In this document: piece after piece, positions 29,535 through 37,430 of the stretch
Numbering within the stretch: the stretch's first letter is position 1
Layout: every line of letters begins with the position of its first letter
From: Methanoculleus bourgensis MS2
GTDB taxonomy: Archaea > Halobacteriota > Methanomicrobia > Methanomicrobiales > Methanoculleaceae
DNA: 64,000 nt
Direction: 5' to 3'
Assembly: GCF_000304355.2 (NCBI RefSeq)
Contig: NC_018227.2
Coordinates: 1,984,001 to 2,048,000 of the forward strand
The notes under the pieces: model-generated
Seen by the model: only the letters and a program-made list of their open reading frames with translations
Databases searched by the model: none
What the model was told of the DNA's origin: nothing
Translations under genes and position numbers: made by a program

Positions 29535-30109
29535 TCTGCAGGACCGGGCTGCTCTGGGATAGTCCCCTGATGTTTGCGAGGCTCATCGAGGACTGCGGTG
29601 CCTGCTGCGAGGCGGTCAACCCCTACATGCTCGCCTCCCCGTTCTGGCGGGGAAGGTTTGTCTCGGTCATCGTGCCGACAGGGTTTGCAAACCCGGCCTA
29701 CTCAAACCTCCTCCCGGCGCTCAAGGCCGCAGAGGAGCGCATCCGGCGTTTCGTCGAGAGCGGCGGGCGGTTGCTGGTCTTTGGTGCAGGCTGCGCCCGG
29801 GAGGACGCCTACGACTGGCTCCCGTTCCCGGTAACCTACTCGTTTGCGTATGGACCGCGTGCAGTCCGGTACACCTGTGAGAGCGAATACACCTCCCTCT
29901 TCGACGGATACGACCTTGCCGCCGTCGAGTGCGACGGGTCGTTCCCGGCCCACGGCGGCGAGACCCTGGCTGTCTCGGCCTCCGGTGAGGCGCTCCTGGT
30001 AGGGAAAGCGGTAGGTGACGGGGTGGTGCTGGTCTCCAGCATCCACGAGTACCCGTCACGTGAATTCCTGAAGAGGTTCTCCTGCGGTGATAGGGAAACC
30101 TTATTCTAG
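29531..30109 (+). CDS. Conserved hypothetical protein, amidotransferase-like fold possible
   Basis: About 192 residues, starting with a GTG that overlaps the rtcB stop (GTGA), so it is translated with rtcB. The segment VIVPTGFANPAYSNLLPALK followed by RRFVESGGRLLVFGAG recalls the class I amidotransferase-like fold, and ADDGVVLVSS-like strands follow. No catalytic triad can be assigned. Its link to RNA repair rests on position alone. Confidence 0.65.
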   Translation: MICRTGLLWDSPLMFARLIEDCGACCEAVNPYMLASPFWRGRFVSVIVPTGFANPAYSNLLPALKAAEERIRRFVESGGRLLVFGAGCAREDAYDWLPFPVTYSFAYGPRAVRYTCESEYTSLFDGYDLAAVECDGSFPAHGGETLAVSASGEALLVGKAVGDGVVLVSSIHEYPSREFLKRFSCGDRETLF

Positions 30110-30134
30110 ATTAAACATGATGAAAGGTATGGAT

Positions 30135-30563
30135 ATGGCCATGGAGCAATACATCATCTCTGCATCTTCACGGGCGCGTGATCTCGCTCCCGTTATGATG
30201 TGCGTCCATGATCTGCTTGGCCATCTGCCTGTTACGGCGCGGTCCCGCGACCATCCGGGTATCAGGATCGAGGACGGAAAGGTCATCGACGAGGCCTACA
30301 CGGGCCCCATCCTCGAAGAGGTCCTGGCGGAGAACGTTGTAAAAAGAGTCAGGCCTCCGGGAGGCCCATATATGGGCATCCCGGTGGTGGTGGCGCCGGT
30401 AAGGGACGGCGAAGGCAGGGCCATCGGTGCAATCGGCATCGTCGATGTGACTGGTATTTTTGATCTGGCGAGTTTCATGGAGCAGAGCGCGGAGATCCGG
30501 AGACAGGTATGTGGCAGGGATCCGTGCCCGCTCCCGACTGAGTCGCCTGCAGCGAAAAGGTAA
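30135..30563 (+). CDS. DUF2111 family protein
   Basis: About 143 residues of the methanogen-specific DUF2111 family; function unknown. Conserved stretches are DLAPVMMCVHDLLGHLPVTA, GIRIEDGKVIDEAYTGPILE and AIGAIGIVDVTGIFDLASFM, suggesting a small-molecule sensing (roadblock- or PAS-like) fold. The start is unclear among ATGs at 30117-30141; AAAGG at 30122-30126 has the right spacing for 30135. Its stop overlaps the birA start (TAATG). Confidence 0.7.
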   Translation: MAMEQYIISASSRARDLAPVMMCVHDLLGHLPVTARSRDHPGIRIEDGKVIDEAYTGPILEEVLAENVVKRVRPPGGPYMGIPVVVAPVRDGEGRAIGAIGIVDVTGIFDLASFMEQSAEIRRQVCGRDPCPLPTESPAAKR

Positions 30564-31549
30564 TGGACATGAAGGACACGGCAATCAATGTACTGAAGAT
30601 TCTCGAGGAGAACCCCGGCCCGGTATCGGGCGAGCATATTGCAGAGCACCTGGGTGTCACCCGTTCAGCCGTCTGGAAACAGATACGCGAGCTCAGGAGA
30701 TTAGGATACAAAATATCGTCGTCCCGGGCACAGGGTTACTGCCTTGAGGCGACGACGAGCAGGCTCCTCCCATACGAGATTCACAAGCGGCTCCGCACCC
30801 GGTTCATCGGAAAGCAGATCCGCTACTTTGACCGCACCGCCTCCACGAGCTGGATCGGCAAACAACTCGCCAGCGAAACCGATCCTGAGAAACTGCACGG
30901 CATGGTGATCATTGCCGAAGAACAGACCGGCGGGGTTGGAAGGCTCGGGCGCGCCTGGGTCTCGCCTGCCGGCGGCATCTGGATCACGATCGTCTTAAAG
31001 CCGAGGATCCCGATCGATCACCTCTTCATGATCACCATGGCCGGGTCGATCGCCATCGCTCGCGCCATCAGGAAGGAATACGGGCTCAGTGCGCTCATCA
31101 AGTGGCCGAACGACATCTTCGTCGGGGACAAGAAGGTCGGCGGGTTGCTCCTGGAACTCGCCGCAGAGGCGGACGCCGTCCACTACGGTCTTCTCGGGAT
31201 CGGGATCGACGCGAACATCTCGCTTGCCGATCTCCCGCCGAACCTGAAAGATACGGTGACCTCACTTGAGGCTGAGGTCGGCCACGAGGTTGACCGCGTG
31301 GCGCTTCTTGTCAGGGTCCTGCGGGAGTTTGAACTGCGCTACCAGCAGCTCGAGGACGGGGAGTACGATTCCATCATCCGCGAGTGGAAGAGTCTTTCCC
31401 TGACGCTTGACCAGCGGGTGGCCATCAGGACCATCAACAAGACCTTTGAGGGGGAGGCCATCGACATCGATAGCCACGGCGCCCTGATCATCCGCCGGGA
31501 TAACGGGAAGATCGAGCGGGTCATTGCCGGCGACTGCTTCCAGCTCTGA
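30563..31549 (+). CDS. birA: Bifunctional biotin-protein ligase and biotin operon repressor BirA
   Basis: 328 residues. An N-terminal winged helix (about 1-60; SGEHIAEHLGVTRSAVWKQI) precedes the ligase domain with biotin/AMP-binding GGVGRLGRAWVSPAGG near 125 and IKWPNDIFVGDKKVGGLL near 175, then a C-terminal SH3-like domain. It activates biotin as biotinyl-AMP and attaches it to the carrier lysine, here most likely in PycB encoded 3.6 kb on. The DNA-binding domain implies repression, and two matching operators lie before bioY. Confidence 0.95.
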   Translation: MDMKDTAINVLKILEENPGPVSGEHIAEHLGVTRSAVWKQIRELRRLGYKISSSRAQGYCLEATTSRLLPYEIHKRLRTRFIGKQIRYFDRTASTSWIGKQLASETDPEKLHGMVIIAEEQTGGVGRLGRAWVSPAGGIWITIVLKPRIPIDHLFMITMAGSIAIARAIRKEYGLSALIKWPNDIFVGDKKVGGLLLELAAEADAVHYGLLGIGIDANISLADLPPNLKDTVTSLEAEVGHEVDRVALLVRVLREFELRYQQLEDGEYDSIIREWKSLSLTLDQRVAIRTINKTFEGEAIDIDSHGALIIRRDNGKIERVIAGDCFQL

Positions 31550-31559
31550 CCGGCCGCGC

Positions 31560-31591
31560 CTGTCAACCGCCATACAATGATTGGTTGACAG
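31560..31591. promoter_or_regulatory. BirA operator 1
   Basis: Perfect inverted repeat CTGTCAACC / GGTTGACAG separated by 14 bases. This matches the known BirA box form (TGT-AACC, 14-16 bases, GGTT-ACA) described for bacteria and archaea. It lies just upstream of the TATA-like TTTTTTATTG of bioY. Confidence 0.85.
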
Positions 31592-31600
31592 GTTTTTTAT
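31592..31600 (+). promoter_or_regulatory. Probable TATA box of the bioY operon
   Basis: GTTTTTTAT sits between the two BirA operators and about 30 bp before the bioY ATG. BirA bound on both sides would block access of TBP/TFB and the start site. Confidence 0.5.
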
Positions 31601-31631
31601 TGTCAACCCGCCAATTTAGATGGGTTTACAT
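31600..31631. promoter_or_regulatory. BirA operator 2, overlapping the bioY start codon
   Basis: Inverted repeat TTGTCAACC / GGTTTACAT with the same 14-base spacer as operator 1; one arm position differs. It covers the bioY initiation region including the first two bases of the ATG at 31630. Confidence 0.8.
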
Positions 31632-32130
31632 GAAACACCGAGCCCAGATCCTCGCCTACAGTGGAACGTTCATAGCGCTGATCGCCGCCGGGAGCTGGAT
31701 ATCCATCCCGCTGCCCCCGGTCCCGCTCACGCTCCAGACTCTCTTTGTGCTCCTTGCCGGGGTCGTCATGCAGCGGTATGCCGTAATCCCCGTCGGCCTC
31801 TACGTCCTCCTCGGGGCGGCGAACCTCCCGGTCTTCCATAACGGTACGGCCGGTCTCGGGGTGCTCCTCGGTCCTACCGGAGGGTTTCTGCTCGGCTTTA
31901 TTCCTGCCGCGCTCGTTGCAGGGCTTGCCTACGAGCACGAATCGCCGAAGATCCGGGTCGCAGGGCTGATCGCGGCAACCTGCACGATCTACCTCTTCGG
32001 CGTCGTATGGCTTGCCTGGTCGGCATCGATCTCGCTCCTCCAGGCGGTCCTGATCGGCGTCGCCCCATTTATCATCGGCGATGCCGTGAAGGCAGCAGCC
32101 GCATTCGCTATAGGAAAGCGCGTGGCATGA
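31630..32130 (+). CDS. bioY: Biotin ECF transporter S component BioY
   Basis: About 166 residues with six hydrophobic segments. The family stretches ISIPLPPVPLTLQTLFVLLAG and GPTGGFLLGFIPAALVAG are present. BioY is the biotin-binding membrane subunit. The ATG at 31630 lies within the second BirA operator; a frame open to 31585 would place coding sequence across the operators and is rejected. The stop overlaps the next start (ATGA). First gene of the importer operon bioY-ATPase-ATPase-T component. Confidence 0.94.
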   Translation: MKHRAQILAYSGTFIALIAAGSWISIPLPPVPLTLQTLFVLLAGVVMQRYAVIPVGLYVLLGAANLPVFHNGTAGLGVLLGPTGGFLLGFIPAALVAGLAYEHESPKIRVAGLIAATCTIYLFGVVWLAWSASISLLQAVLIGVAPFIIGDAVKAAAAFAIGKRVA

Positions 32131-32798
32131 TCCAGATCACCAATCTTCGGCACCGGCTCATCGAGATCCCGGACCTCACGGTAGATGCGCGCCACATCGC
32201 CGTGATCGGGCCGAACGGGAGCGGTAAGACGACGCTTCTTTCGGTCTGCTCCGGCATCGAGGAGCCCCGCGCCGGGACGGTCCGGATCCTCGGGAGGCCG
32301 CCATCGGCCGTGAGAATCGGGTGGGTGGGGGAGTTTCCCGACCGGACGCTCCTCTTCTCCCGGGTATATGATGAGATCGCAGCGACGCCCCGGTTCCGTA
32401 ATCGTTCCTGCCCCGAGACCGATGAGCGGGTCAGGGCGGCTGCCGCGCTGGTCGGGATTTCGCACCTCCGGGATGCGAAGGTCTCGACCCTCTCGGGGGG
32501 GGAGAAGGCCCTCGTCGCGCTGGCCGCCGCCGGTGCCGACGACCCTGAGGTGCTCATCCTTGACGAGGCCGACTCGCACCTGGACGCCGGGACAGCGGAT
32601 CGTGTCCAGCGCGTTGTGCGTAAGAGCGCGGCGGCCCACGTGCTCTGGTGCACGCAGTCGATGGATACGGCGGCCTGCGCGGACTACGTCATCTTTATGG
32701 AGGGAGGTGTGGTCCGGTATCACGGCACGCCTGACAAGGTCTTTGCCGGACTTGAGGAGACCTGTTTCTACCCTACGATGTGGAGGATCCGCCGGTGA
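32127..32798 (+). CDS. ECF transporter ATPase, first (BioM-like)
   Basis: About 223 residues. Walker A GPNGSGKTT, signature LSGGEKALVAL, Walker B VLILDEADSHLD; the switch region is CTQSMDTA, so the usual His of the ABC H-loop is replaced by Gln-Ser. It overlaps bioY by 4 bases and is one of two adjacent ATPases that should pair as a heterodimer. The frame is open upstream inside bioY but the ATG at 32127 fits. Confidence 0.88.
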   Translation: MIQITNLRHRLIEIPDLTVDARHIAVIGPNGSGKTTLLSVCSGIEEPRAGTVRILGRPPSAVRIGWVGEFPDRTLLFSRVYDEIAATPRFRNRSCPETDERVRAAAALVGISHLRDAKVSTLSGGEKALVALAAAGADDPEVLILDEADSHLDAGTADRVQRVVRKSAAAHVLWCTQSMDTAACADYVIFMEGGVVRYHGTPDKVFAGLEETCFYPTMWRIRR

Positions 32799-33493
32799 GG
32801 GTGGACCTCGAGGATCTCCTCTTCTCCCGGGGCCGGTTCAGCCTCCGGGGCAGCGGCACCTTCGGCGAGGGCGTGCACCTGGTCAGCGGGCCGGTGGGGA
32901 GCGGGAAGTCAACGCTGGCACTACTGCTCGCCGAAATCCTCCGTCCAGAGAGCGGCGCCGTCCGGCGGCACGGGATCTCGTCTGCCCTGCTCCTGCTGCA
33001 GTTTCCCGAGTACCACATCACCTGCCCGACAATCGCCGAGGAGGCCGGGTCCTGGGGTCTTGACCCCGATGAACTCCTCGTGCGCGCGGACCTTGCCGGA
33101 CGCGGCGATGATGACCCGTTCCACCTCTCCCGCGGCGAACTGAAACGGTTGATCCTGGCCTGCATGATCATGCGAAACCCCGACCTGCTGATGCTGGACG
33201 AACCGTTCAGCTCGCTCGACTGCGCCGCCAAACGAAGAGCCTGCAGCATGATCGAAGGAAGGAGCGAGGGAATCACCATCATCTTCTCGCACGAGCGCGC
33301 GGTCCTTCCCCGGGTGGATGCCCTCTGGGAGATGGAGGGCGGCACCCTGAGGGCCCTGGGCAGCGTGCCTCGCGCGATTCCCCGGTGGCGGCACGCCCCG
33401 CCGTACCTCACGTACGCCCTGGAACGGGGTGCCCGCCCGGAGAACATCAGGCTCCAGGACGCCCGGGAGGCGATATGCAGGACCCAAGGCTGA
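32795..33493 (+). CDS. ECF transporter ATPase, second
   Basis: About 232 residues. Walker A SGPVGSGKST, Q-loop LLLQFPEYH, signature LSRGELKRL (degenerate LSGGE), Walker B LLMLDEPFSSLD and switch FSHE. The start is GTG 32795, overlapping the previous stop (GTGA) with GGAGG 8 bases before it; an earlier in-frame GTG at 32780 lacks this. With the first ATPase it forms the energising pair of the biotin importer; each has one altered motif, as is common in heterodimers. Confidence 0.88.
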   Translation: MRVDLEDLLFSRGRFSLRGSGTFGEGVHLVSGPVGSGKSTLALLLAEILRPESGAVRRHGISSALLLLQFPEYHITCPTIAEEAGSWGLDPDELLVRADLAGRGDDDPFHLSRGELKRLILACMIMRNPDLLMLDEPFSSLDCAAKRRACSMIEGRSEGITIIFSHERAVLPRVDALWEMEGGTLRALGSVPRAIPRWRHAPPYLTYALERGARPENIRLQDAREAICRTQG

Positions 33494-34128
33494 GGCTCTT
33501 TGCCACCGTGGTCCTCTCGGTGGCCGCGTTTGCGAGCACCGCGGGGGCCCTCGCCGTCCTGATCTGGTGGCTGATCTTCACGCCGCGCATAAAGGCTCTC
33601 CCGCGGCCCGGCGTGTTCCTCGGCCTCATCGCGATGATCGCCGTAACAGCGCTCGTCTCCGAGTGGGGGGGCGGCCCGGGGGTCTCCTACCTGATCAGGA
33701 TGGTCGTGGTCCTGCTCCTCGCCGCATGGGCGTACACCGAGACTAGCGAGGGAGAGATGCTTGCCGTGGCGGTCTGGGCGCTTGGTGACCGGATTGGGTT
33801 TGAGATCGGACTCATCGCCGAGATGGGGCTCTTCGGGCTCACGGTGATCAGGCAGGATATCGAGCAGGTGCGGGTCGCATTGGCGCTGAAGGGGATCAGG
33901 ATCGGCGCCCGCTCGATCGTGCCGATCGCTGCTCTGCTCATCGTCACCCAGATCCGGAGGGCCGATGATCTGGCCAGATTGTTGGTGGTACGGGGATACA
34001 CGCTCGGAGGGCGGATATGCCCGGTCTTTGAAACGGGCTCACGAGACGTTCTGGCAGCTCTATTTGCGATGATACCGGGGATTTTATGCTGCCCGGCCGT
34101 TCGAGATGTTTTTATAGTATTACAGTGA
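33475..34128 (+). CDS. ECF transporter T component (CbiQ/BioN-like)
   Basis: About 217 residues with membrane segments near 10-30, 40-55, 65-85 and 195-215 and the cytoplasmic coupling stretch ADDLARLLVVRGYTLGG, where a conserved Ala-Arg-Gly motif normally binds the ATPases (here VRG). It overlaps the previous gene by 19 bases. Completes the importer S, A, A', T. Because it follows bioY directly, it is probably a dedicated biotin module, but T units can serve several S components. Confidence 0.85.
   Translation: MQDPRLRLFATVVLSVAAFASTAGALAVLIWWLIFTPRIKALPRPGVFLGLIAMIAVTALVSEWGGGPGVSYLIRMVVVLLLAAWAYTETSEGEMLAVAVWALGDRIGFEIGLIAEMGLFGLTVIRQDIEQVRVALALKGIRIGARSIVPIAALLIVTQIRRADDLARLLVVRGYTLGGRICPVFETGSRDVLAALFAMIPGILCCPAVRDVFIVLQ
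34111..34120 (+). promoter_or_regulatory. TATA box of the pyruvate carboxylase genes
   Basis: TTTATAGTAT lies about 65 bp before the pycB ATG at 34182, giving a leader of about 40 bases, and overlaps the end of the T-component gene. No BirA box is seen here, so the carboxylase genes seem not to be under direct BirA control. Confidence 0.5.
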
Positions 34129-34181: not shown

Positions 34182-35930
34182 ATGTGTGCTGCCAAATCCG
34201 ATACACTCTATATAACCGATACCACGCTTAGGGACGCGCATCAGTCACTTATCGCCACCCGGCTGCGGACTGAAGACATGCTTCCCCTCGCCCGGGCCAT
34301 CGATAACGCGGGTTTCTTCTCTGTTGAAGCCTGGGGCGGGGCGACCTTTGACAGCTGCATCAGGTTTCTCAATGATGACCCGTGGGACCGCCTTCGGGAG
34401 CTGAAAGCCGAACTGAGACGCACTCCCATCCAGATGCTCCTGCGGGGTCAGAACCTCGTAGGCTACCGGCATTACCCCGATGACGTGGTGGAGAAGTTCG
34501 TAGATGCATCTGCAGAGAACGGGGTCGATATCTTCCGGGTCTTTGATGCGCTCAACGATATCCGGAACATGAAGAAGGCGATGGAGGAGGTCAGGAACGT
34601 CGGGGCGCACCTGCAGGGCGCGATATCGTACACGACAAGTCCAGCCCACTCCGTCGCGACGTTCATCGGCATGGCCGAGGATCTCTACGCGCTTGGGTGC
34701 GACTCGATCTGTATCAAGGACATGGCCGGGCTGATCATGCCTCATGACGCCCGTGACCTGATCTCGGGGATCAAGAAGACAGTCGACATCAAGGTCTGCC
34801 TCCACTCTCACTGTACGAGCGGTGTTGCGCCCCTGAGTTACCAGGCGGCGATCGATGCCGGTGTGGATATCCTTGATACGGCGATGTCGCCGTTTGCGCT
34901 CGGGACGTCCCAGCCCCCGACCGAGAGCGTTGTTGCAAGCGTCTCCGGGACGCCGCGCGACACCGGTATCGATCTGGTCGCGCTCCGGAATGTCAGAAAC
35001 GTCTGCCGGGATATCAGGGAGAAGTACCAGCCGCTCTTTTCCGCCATCGCGGACCGGGTCGACTCAGACGTTCTGATCTACCAGCTCCCGGGCGGCATGA
35101 TCTCAAACCTCGTCTCCCAGTTGAAGGAGCAGAATGCTCTCGACCGCCTGGAAGAGGTGCTCCATGAGATCCCGCGGGTGAGGAAGGACCTCGGCTATCC
35201 GCCTCTCGTGACCCCGACGAGCCAGATCGTGGGCACCCAGGCGGTGCTGAACGTCCTGCTCGGCGGGGAGCGCTACCGGAACGTGACAGGCGAGGTGAAG
35301 GACTATGTTCTCGGCCTCTACGGCCGTCCTCCCGCCCCGATCAGCCCGGAGGTGCAGAAGCTGATCATCGGCGATGAGGAGCCGGTCACGGTCCGCCCGG
35401 CCGACCTTCTTGAACCCATCTACGAGCAGATGCGGAAAGAGGCGGCGGAGCAGAACCTGATCGTCAGGGAAGAGGATGTTCTCACCTACATCCTCTATCC
35501 GGCCGTCGCCCCGTCGTTCCTGAAGGGCGAGCGCCAGGCTGAAGTTATCCCGAACCCGGCCGCCGAAGCGGCGAGTATTGCGGATATCCCCCACTCCATG
35601 GAGGTCGAGGTAGACGGAGAGATCTTCTCGGTCCGGATCGTCACCGTGGAGGGGAGCTCGATTGCGGTCAAGGCGGCAGCCCCGGCGGCCAGGGAGAGGG
35701 TCCCCCGTGGGGATGTCCCCGGCGGCATCAAGAGCAACATGCAGGGTATGGTCCTGCAGGTGTTGACGCAGAAGGGGAGCACCGTCAAGAAGGGAGATAC
35801 CCTCATCGTCCTTGAAGCCATGAAGATGGAGAACCCCATCCGCAGTCCGCGCGACGGTACGGTGGAGGAGATCTTCGTCGATGCCGGGGATGTCGTGCAG
35901 AACGGCGATGTGCTGATGGTCATCGAGTGA
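34182..35930 (+). CDS. pycB: Pyruvate carboxylase subunit B (carboxyltransferase with biotin carrier)
   Basis: 582 residues. The N-terminal TIM-barrel carboxyltransferase shows ITDTTLRDAHQSLIATR and the metal-binding HSHCTSGVAPLSY; the C-terminal biotinyl domain has the modified lysine in EAMKMEN near residue 550. With PycA it makes oxaloacetate from pyruvate, the methanogen entry to the incomplete TCA cycle. An oxaloacetate decarboxylase alpha subunit looks similar, but the adjacent biotin carboxylase gene favours pyruvate carboxylase. The start at 34182 fits family length; the frame is open to 34086. Confidence 0.95.
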   Translation: MCAAKSDTLYITDTTLRDAHQSLIATRLRTEDMLPLARAIDNAGFFSVEAWGGATFDSCIRFLNDDPWDRLRELKAELRRTPIQMLLRGQNLVGYRHYPDDVVEKFVDASAENGVDIFRVFDALNDIRNMKKAMEEVRNVGAHLQGAISYTTSPAHSVATFIGMAEDLYALGCDSICIKDMAGLIMPHDARDLISGIKKTVDIKVCLHSHCTSGVAPLSYQAAIDAGVDILDTAMSPFALGTSQPPTESVVASVSGTPRDTGIDLVALRNVRNVCRDIREKYQPLFSAIADRVDSDVLIYQLPGGMISNLVSQLKEQNALDRLEEVLHEIPRVRKDLGYPPLVTPTSQIVGTQAVLNVLLGGERYRNVTGEVKDYVLGLYGRPPAPISPEVQKLIIGDEEPVTVRPADLLEPIYEQMRKEAAEQNLIVREEDVLTYILYPAVAPSFLKGERQAEVIPNPAAEAASIADIPHSMEVEVDGEIFSVRIVTVEGSSIAVKAAAPAARERVPRGDVPGGIKSNMQGMVLQVLTQKGSTVKKGDTLIVLEAMKMENPIRSPRDGTVEEIFVDAGDVVQNGDVLMVIE

Positions 35931-35954: not shown

Positions 35955-37430
35955 ATGAAATATTTCGACAAGATCCTGATCGCCAACCGCGGTGAGGTCG
36001 CCATACGGGTTATGCGCGCCTGCCGGGAGCTGGATATCGATACGGTCGCGATCTACTCCGAGCCGGATAAGAATGCGCTCCACGTCAAGTACGCGGATGA
36101 GTCGTTCTGCGTTGGTGAGGCACACCCGTCTAAGAGTTACCTTAACAAGGAGCGGATCTGCGATGTCGCCAGGAAGTCTGCGGCTGATGCGATCCACCCG
36201 GGGTATGGGTTCCTCGCCGAGAACAGCCAGTTTGCAAAACTGGTCGAGGATGAAGGGCTGACGTTCATCGGTCCTTCGTGGAAGACGATCGAGGCGCTGG
36301 GCTCCAAGGTCGTGTCGAAGCGGATGATGCGCGAGGCGGGCGTGCCGGTCCTTCCCGGCACGCCGGACGGCGTCACCAGCATTGATGAAGCAAAGAAGAT
36401 CGCTGCCGAGATCGGCTACCCGGTGGTCGTGAAGGCGAGTGCGGGCGGCGGCGGTATCGGTATGCATATCGCCGAATCTGAGGACCAGCTCGAGGAGGCG
36501 ATCGATAAGGGGATGCGGATCGCGGCGTCTGCCTTTGGGGACCCGACGGTCTTTGTGGAGAAGTACCTCGCAAAACCGCGCCATATCGAGATCCAGGTCC
36601 TTGCCGATGCGAAAGGAAATACCCTTCACCTCTACGACCGCGAGTGTTCCATCCAGCGCCGGCACCAGAAGCTGGTCGAGGAGGCGCCCTGCCCGATCAT
36701 GACCCCTGATCTCCGGGAGCGGATGACGGCGTCGGCCATCACCGCCGCAAAGGCGGCGAACTACACGAATGCCGGCACGGTGGAGTTCCTCTACGCGAAC
36801 GGGAACTATTACTTCATGGAGGTGAACACCCGGCTGCAGGTGGAGCATACGATCACTGAGTTCATCACGGGGATTGATATCGTGAAGAAGCAGATCGCCA
36901 TCGCCGCCGGTGAGGATCTCCCGATGGGCCAGGAGGATGTCAGCATCCGGGGGCACGCGATCGAGTGCCGGATCAATGCGGAGGACCCGCTGAATAACTT
37001 CTCCGCTGATCCAGGGAAGATCGTGCGCTACCGGTCCCCGGGAGGTCCGGGGATACGGGTCGATTCCGGCATCCATAATGGCTACACCATCCCCCCGCAC
37101 TACGACTCGATGATATCCAAACTCTGCGCCTGGGGGGCCGATCGTGAAGAGGCAATCCTCAGGATGCGCCGGGCTCTCTACGAGTATGTTATCCTCGGCG
37201 TGAAGACGACGCTCCCGCTCCAGTATGCGATCATGCGAAACCCGCACTTCATCGCCGGCGATACGCATACGCATTTCCTGCAGGAGGAGCATATCGCAAA
37301 GAGCCTGCGCCGCTACCTCTACGAGGAGGCGACGCGCATGCAGACGCTGGCTGCATCGCTCCGGCACGGGAAGGAGGTGGCGGCGATCGCTGCGGCGGTC
37401 GACGTGTATCTCCGGAAAAACGTGAAGTGA
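35955..37430 (+). CDS. pycA: Pyruvate carboxylase subunit A (biotin carboxylase)
   Basis: 491 residues. ATP-grasp enzyme that carboxylates biotin on PycB. The N-terminus KILIANRGEVAIRVMRA, the glycine-rich loop VKASAGGGGIGM near 160, YFMEVNTRLQVEHT near 285 and the late VYRSPGGPGIRVDS-like region fit. It lies 24 bases after pycB on the same transcript. Order B then A is the reverse of many methanogens' A-B. Confidence 0.96.
   Translation: MKYFDKILIANRGEVAIRVMRACRELDIDTVAIYSEPDKNALHVKYADESFCVGEAHPSKSYLNKERICDVARKSAADAIHPGYGFLAENSQFAKLVEDEGLTFIGPSWKTIEALGSKVVSKRMMREAGVPVLPGTPDGVTSIDEAKKIAAEIGYPVVVKASAGGGGIGMHIAESEDQLEEAIDKGMRIAASAFGDPTVFVEKYLAKPRHIEIQVLADAKGNTLHLYDRECSIQRRHQKLVEEAPCPIMTPDLRERMTASAITAAKAANYTNAGTVEFLYANGNYYFMEVNTRLQVEHTITEFITGIDIVKKQIAIAAGEDLPMGQEDVSIRGHAIECRINAEDPLNNFSADPGKIVRYRSPGGPGIRVDSGIHNGYTIPPHYDSMISKLCAWGADREEAILRMRRALYEYVILGVKTTLPLQYAIMRNPHFIAGDTHTHFLQEEHIAKSLRRYLYEEATRMQTLAASLRHGKEVAAIAAAVDVYLRKNVK

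Follow-up and report, generated by a model that had tools for sequence, protein, structure and literature searches.

Two palindromes lie between birA and the start of bioY in Methanoculleus bourgensis, and they raise the question of which genes an archaeal BirA protein would regulate: the biotin importer encoded just downstream only, or also the metabolism that depends on biotin. The question was approached from the window (the whole 64-kb stretch of DNA that was analysed), from genome-wide pattern searches (the genome is a single contig of 2,789,774 bases), and from a survey of 61 genomes of relatives, in which the families of the order were labelled f1 to f6, f1 being the host's own family. 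The relatives share ancestry, and counts among them are not independent events.

The birA-bioY-pycBA locus

The birA gene (30563..31549, plus strand) encodes a bifunctional biotin-protein ligase with an N-terminal helix-turn-helix (HTH) and the recognition helix TRSAVWKQIRELR. The DNA-binding domain that the original prediction gave for birA was borne out by Pfam, with HTH_11 (PF08279) scoring 56.5 bits over residues 9-59 (cut-off 25), and the ligase domains BPL_LplA_LipB (PF03099, 69.2 bits) and BPL_C (PF02237, 46.6 bits) were both over cut-off as well. TIGR00121 matched with 189.7 bits (cut-off 83.1), and the protein aligns full-length with the solved BirA chains 3rir and 1bia. NCBIfam models of the PRK11886 group matched near full-length with 109-165 bits, and TIGR00122 with 50.9 bits, in each case below curated cut-offs that were possibly set for bacterial members. 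Directly upstream, a DUF2111 gene (PF09884, archaeal; 30087-30563) touches the birA start and is possibly co-transcribed with it.

The bioY gene (31630..32130, plus strand) encodes the biotin-binding S-component of a probable ECF-type (BioYMN) importer (Pfam BioY, 135.7 bits, cut-off 25) and is followed on the same strand by two ABC ATPase genes of the importer (32127..32798, ABC_tran 80.7 bits; 32780..33493, 50 bits). The top NCBIfam matches of the first ATPase are ECF ATPases, which scored under their cut-offs. The next gene (33475..34128, plus strand) had no Pfam or NCBIfam match, and its product is a putative T-component, a BioN-like membrane protein, by position and hydrophobicity alone. 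It precedes, again on the plus strand, pycB (34182..35930), encoding subunit B of pyruvate carboxylase (PYC; Pfam PYC_OADA 199.5 bits, Biotin_lipoyl 68 bits), and pycA (35955..37430), encoding the biotin carboxylase subunit (Biotin_carb_N, CPSase_L_D2, Biotin_carb_C). Membership of pycBA in a repressed bioY operon was considered and rejected: a TATA-like element of the GACGTTTTTATATTA type (34108..34119, plus strand), kept upstream of pycB in most of the ten relatives compared, marks a predicted pycB promoter of its own that has no BirA box, and read-through from bioY may occur.

Twin boxes at the bioY promoter

Box 1, the upstream box (31560..31591, unstranded), reads CTGTCAACC-N14-GGTTGACAG, with arms complementary at 9/9 positions, and lies at about -69 from the bioY ATG, a position kept in many relatives. 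Box 2, the downstream box (31600..31631, unstranded), reads TTGTCAACC-N14-GGTTTACAT, with a complementarity of 7/9, lies at about -29 and ends inside the ATG (31630), the A and T of which are its final two bases. Between them, the T-rich TATA-like element TTTTTTATT (31593..31601, plus strand) was assigned to the bioY promoter from its sequence. This arrangement, originally described as two inverted repeats with 14-base spacers that flank a TATA-like box and cover the bioY start, was confirmed in both coordinates and sequence. The placement of the boxes relative to TATA and ATG is that of a repressor which would block the TATA element and the transcription start.

The evidence for the boxes is their specific sequence and their conservation rather than their symmetry, because generic inverted repeats are common, with 160 in the window for 9-base arms, a 14-base spacer and up to 2 mismatches. 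The box consensus, allowing up to 3 mismatches, matched only twice in the 64-kb window, at boxes 1 and 2, while shuffled windows gave a mean of 0.02 matches and never 2.

A third box upstream of a predicted biotin-independent carboxylase

The BirA-box definition, TGTNAACC / GGTTNACA separated by 14-16 bases, is matched perfectly by three sites in the whole genome: the two at bioY and one at 1490164-1490193, which lies outside the window, 0.53 Mb from the bioY boxes and 39 nt upstream of the ppcA start. The genome-wide search that had been suggested along with the original prediction hence yielded one additional site, and weaker candidates for further regulon members were rejected, as the 4 matches with 1-2 mismatches were near the count for a reversed control pattern (2) and were taken as chance. 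The lone site with 1 mismatch (G000:C1:2526176-2526205) spans both the start of a coding region and the boundary of an ORF and is probably a chance match; the ORF that starts under it has a sequence like the corrinoid subunit of CO dehydrogenase/acetyl-CoA synthase.

The ppcA product is an archaeal-type phosphoenolpyruvate carboxylase (PEPC), matched by the equivalog model TIGR02751 with 611.9 bits (cut-off 146) and by PF14010 with 647 bits (over cut-off), with 3odm as a solved relative. PYC and PEPC make the same product, oxaloacetate, and only PYC needs biotin for it. The M. bourgensis PEPC is predicted to need none, the sole locus of the biotinyl/lipoyl domain (PF00364) in the genome being PycB. 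PycB of PYC was also the only biotin-accepting protein in 21/21 genomes tested; a second PF00364 match in G007 is partial, at a contig end and inside another PycB-like frame. BioB scored over its curated cut-off in just 1/61 genomes (G056), which makes biotin auxotrophy of the host probable.

Proposed regulation and its relation to known systems

I propose that BirA represses both the biotin importer and PEPC, and that biotin starvation would release both, with PEPC replacing PYC; this reading is very probably correct. It builds on sequence, namely the sites, their exclusive targets, their conservation, their co-loss with the recognition helix and PYC as the sole biotinyl protein, from which I infer BirA binding, repression as its direction and the physiological switch. 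When biotin is plentiful, BirA-biotinyl-AMP would dimerise on both bioY palindromes and cover the TATA element and the transcription start, turning off bioY and the ECF importer, and at the third operator it would likewise shut off the biotin-independent PEPC. When biotin is short, BirA would be consumed in biotinylating apo-PYC, or would be ligand-free, and would leave all three sites, so that import would rise and PEPC would take over oxaloacetate synthesis from PYC. As starvation would release PEPC, oxaloacetate could then be made without biotin. PYC, the sole biotin enzyme, would be transcribed from its own promoter, and because this promoter has no box, the regulon would consist of the importer and a biotin-free substitute, with the biotin enzyme spared. 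Read-through into pycBA from bioY would make the switch less clean. It is likely, with somewhat less confidence, that BirA serves as such a carboxylase switch in Methanoculleus, Methanogenium and their relatives, by which a biotin auxotroph would make oxaloacetate, and perhaps grow, without biotin.

BirA boxes at bioY, including those in archaea, are already known; the PEPC target appears to be new. Rodionov, Mironov and Gelfand reportedly described BirA boxes in bacteria and archaea in 2002, bioY included, and proposed archaeal control; the targets named in their abstract are said to be biotin synthesis, biotin transport and some biotin-dependent carboxylases. The known BirA biotin regulon (Escherichia coli bioO; Bacillus BirA) resembles the one described here in its bifunctional ligase/repressor with HTH, in bioY as a target and in its box, TTGTNAACC-N14-16-GGTTNACAA, and it differs in that the second conserved target proposed here is a biotin-independent enzyme that would replace a biotin enzyme. 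The 2002 proposal of a BirA common to bacteria and archaea is discussed in PMC3199775.

A physiological parallel comes from Corynebacterium glutamicum, which has two oxaloacetate routes, one of them biotin-dependent, with PEPC being responsible under biotin limitation (PMC11457263). As proposed here, anaplerosis runs through PYC and PEPC, with PEPC for biotin shortage; in contrast to the proposal, the excerpts consulted do not connect PEPC transcription with biotin, and they place the bioYMN operon under BioQ (PMC11457263). No report of a BirA-PEPC link was found in the literature searched, and since most subscription papers were outside reach, an earlier mention is possible.

Cofactor-sparing regulation as such is familiar from the B12 riboswitch on metE and from Zur acting on zinc-free ribosomal proteins. 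These systems share with the proposed one a cofactor sensor that represses an isofunctional cofactor-free protein, and they differ in that here the sensor would be the biotin ligase, which would have the replaced enzyme as its sole substrate. Such a system is not known for biotin. If the proposal is true, biotin joins the cofactors whose shortage switches on a cofactor-free enzyme, and this would be, as far as is known, the first BirA regulon to include a biotin-free substitute of BirA's sole substrate. It would also explain why some methanogens have two enzymes for one reaction. PEPC-bearing Methanoculleus species, which are common in biogas plants, would be predicted to tolerate biotin starvation, and PEPC-less sister species would not. 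Such a compact two-target archaeal regulon would make ligase, repressor, substrate enzyme and substitute all testable.

Conservation of the boxes among relatives

Perfect boxes numbered 53 in the 61 genomes, all of them upstream of bioY (41) or ppcA (12) and none at any other gene. The spacer was 14 bases in 43 (bioY 36, ppcA 7) and 15 bases in 10, five at bioY (G002, G014, G015, G017, G036) and five at ppcA (G002, G009, G011, G015, G042). Spacer sequence varied freely across genomes, and the arms were kept. The birA gene adjoins bioY in nearly all genomes, and a bioY box was present in four families (f1, f2, f5 and f6).

A bioY upstream region was readable in 36 genomes of f1; counting boxes with up to 2 mismatches, both boxes were found in 10/36, at a start-to-start distance of 39-41 bp, and one box in 25/36, either downstream only (17/36) or upstream only (8/36). 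The remaining genome, G021 (1/36), had only a displaced box remnant. Single boxes were found in 5/5 genomes of f2, in 5/5 of f5 (most with CGTCAACC/GGTTGACG through a change of the outer base) and in 3/4 of f6, plus a weak one. Most relatives thus have just one of the two boxes, and the twin arrangement at bioY is not essential. A steeper response through two sites, which the original prediction suggested as a possibility, would therefore not be general among them. A TTTTTAT-type element directly upstream of the downstream box was kept in f1, f5, f6 and partly in f2, and in most of the bioY promoters compared the ATG follows this box directly or shortly. No box was found upstream of bioY in f3 or f4 (5/5 genomes each), and the birA-bioY gap is just ~20-35 bp in f4 and some f3. 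In G056 (C22:5700-8500), bioB is flanked by birA and bioY and oriented divergently from the latter, and the intergenic stretch upstream of bioY holds the weak box TGTTCACC-N14-AGTTTACA.

PYC was present in 61/61 genomes and PEPC in 23/61; most Methanoculleus species have no PEPC, which argues that the PEPC bypass is dispensable. Where ppcA is present in f1 and f2, it is boxed in 18/19 genes: 16/19 have a box at -79 to -95, counted from the ATG of the conserved MSTQHPDN start, with no more than 2 mismatches and with a score reached by 0/200 shuffles for each of the 16, and two have it further upstream (G009 at ~-310, G035 at ~-190). The G009 MAG contains two ppcA genes, each boxed, one of them by the box at ~-310, and may be two strains mixed in one bin. 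The sole f1/f2 ppcA gene without a box is that of G021, which matches Ca. Methanoculleus thermohydrogenotrophicum and has lost its ppcA box and its proximal bioY box, with the BirA helix intact. In f4, a Methanofollis-like family that groups with named Methanofollis in the tree, PEPC was present in five genomes and boxed in 0/5. Both PEPC-bearing lineages without a bioY box, f4 and Methanospirillum, have no ppcA box either.

The PEPCs of f1 and f2 are only 58% identical and stand apart in the PEPC tree, with all Methanomicrobiales PEPCs on one side of a branch. A double gain of the box on unrelated f1 and f2 PEPCs was considered and dropped, as a single clade of boxed PEPCs was compatible with the AU test (p 0.125); given this value and the placement on one side of a branch, no convergence is claimed.

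Boxes, recognition helix and alternative readings

The BirA recognition helix reads RSAVWK(Q/H/C)IxELR or near in the box-bearing families f1, f2, f5 and f6. The RSAVWK part is lost in f4 (RSAVSHHIKELR, SSVTRQIKDLR and similar), and the helix is degraded in f3, where two genomes wholly lack the HTH; boxes and recognition helix were lost together in these two families. Box occurrence follows a BirA with intact HTH, with two exceptions: Methanospirillum keeps a WKHINELR helix although neither its bioY nor its ppcA is boxed, and in G021 the helix is kept with boxes degenerate or lost. The linkage is imperfect on account of these two. Cross-family conservation, the co-loss of box and helix in f3 and f4 and the lack of any further target nevertheless strongly support the sites as BirA operators. 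The original assignment to bioY and the ECF importer therefore stands on these grounds; it was incomplete in that ppcA was missed.

An import-only regulon, with the ppcA site weakly bound or without physiological role, is improbable. Shared descent could preserve a TGTCAACC/GGTTGACA palindrome in closely related genomes, and a single origin is possible given that the Methanomicrobiales PEPCs form one tree group; yet the spacer diverges freely and is 14 or 15 bases long, while in two families whose PEPCs are just 58% identical the arms keep a fixed position upstream of ppcA and a perfect or almost perfect sequence. Moreover, the ppcA site is missing exactly where the bioY box is missing (f4, Methanospirillum).

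That the palindromes are read by a transcription factor other than BirA seems very unlikely, as they adjoin birA at a biotin transporter, carry arms that reportedly equal those published for BirA by Rodionov et al. (2002), and do not occur in f3 and f4, the families with a degraded BirA helix; what speaks for another factor is that binding of BirA to the boxes is predicted only and that Methanospirillum keeps the helix without them. There is similarly little to recommend BirA as an activator at ppcA, raising PEPC when biotin is present. Archaeal regulators can activate near TATA, and the sequence does not give the direction, but at ppcA as at bioY a T-rich element immediately precedes the box and the start codon follows it, the arrangement expected for repression, and PEPC would be made when least needed. 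Repression of both importer and PEPC remains the preferred reading.

PEPC loci across phyla

A wider survey covered 80 named PEPC loci from many phyla. Boxes at PEPC were found only in Methanoculleus (e.g. M. chikugoensis), Methanogenium (M. cariaci and two others) and other Methanomicrobiaceae or Methanomicrobiales, and were absent in Methanospirillum, Methanofollis, Methanobacteriaceae, Lokiarchaeota, Chloroflexi and others among the 80. A BirA-PEPC link outside the order was accordingly rejected for these loci, and ~300 kb of background in PEPC loci held zero sites with up to 2 mismatches. In Methanogenium cariaci the bioY box is perfect, and the ppcA box is intact too. The draft birA of this species (G064:C5:27494-28478) is split into three, and two of the matched stretches contain an in-frame TGA, which may reflect sequencing error or damage to the gene. 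An archaeal-type PEPC without a box also occurs in Dehalococcoidia and other Chloroflexi; it is 65-67% identical to Methanoculleus PEPC and likely stems from old inter-domain transfers.
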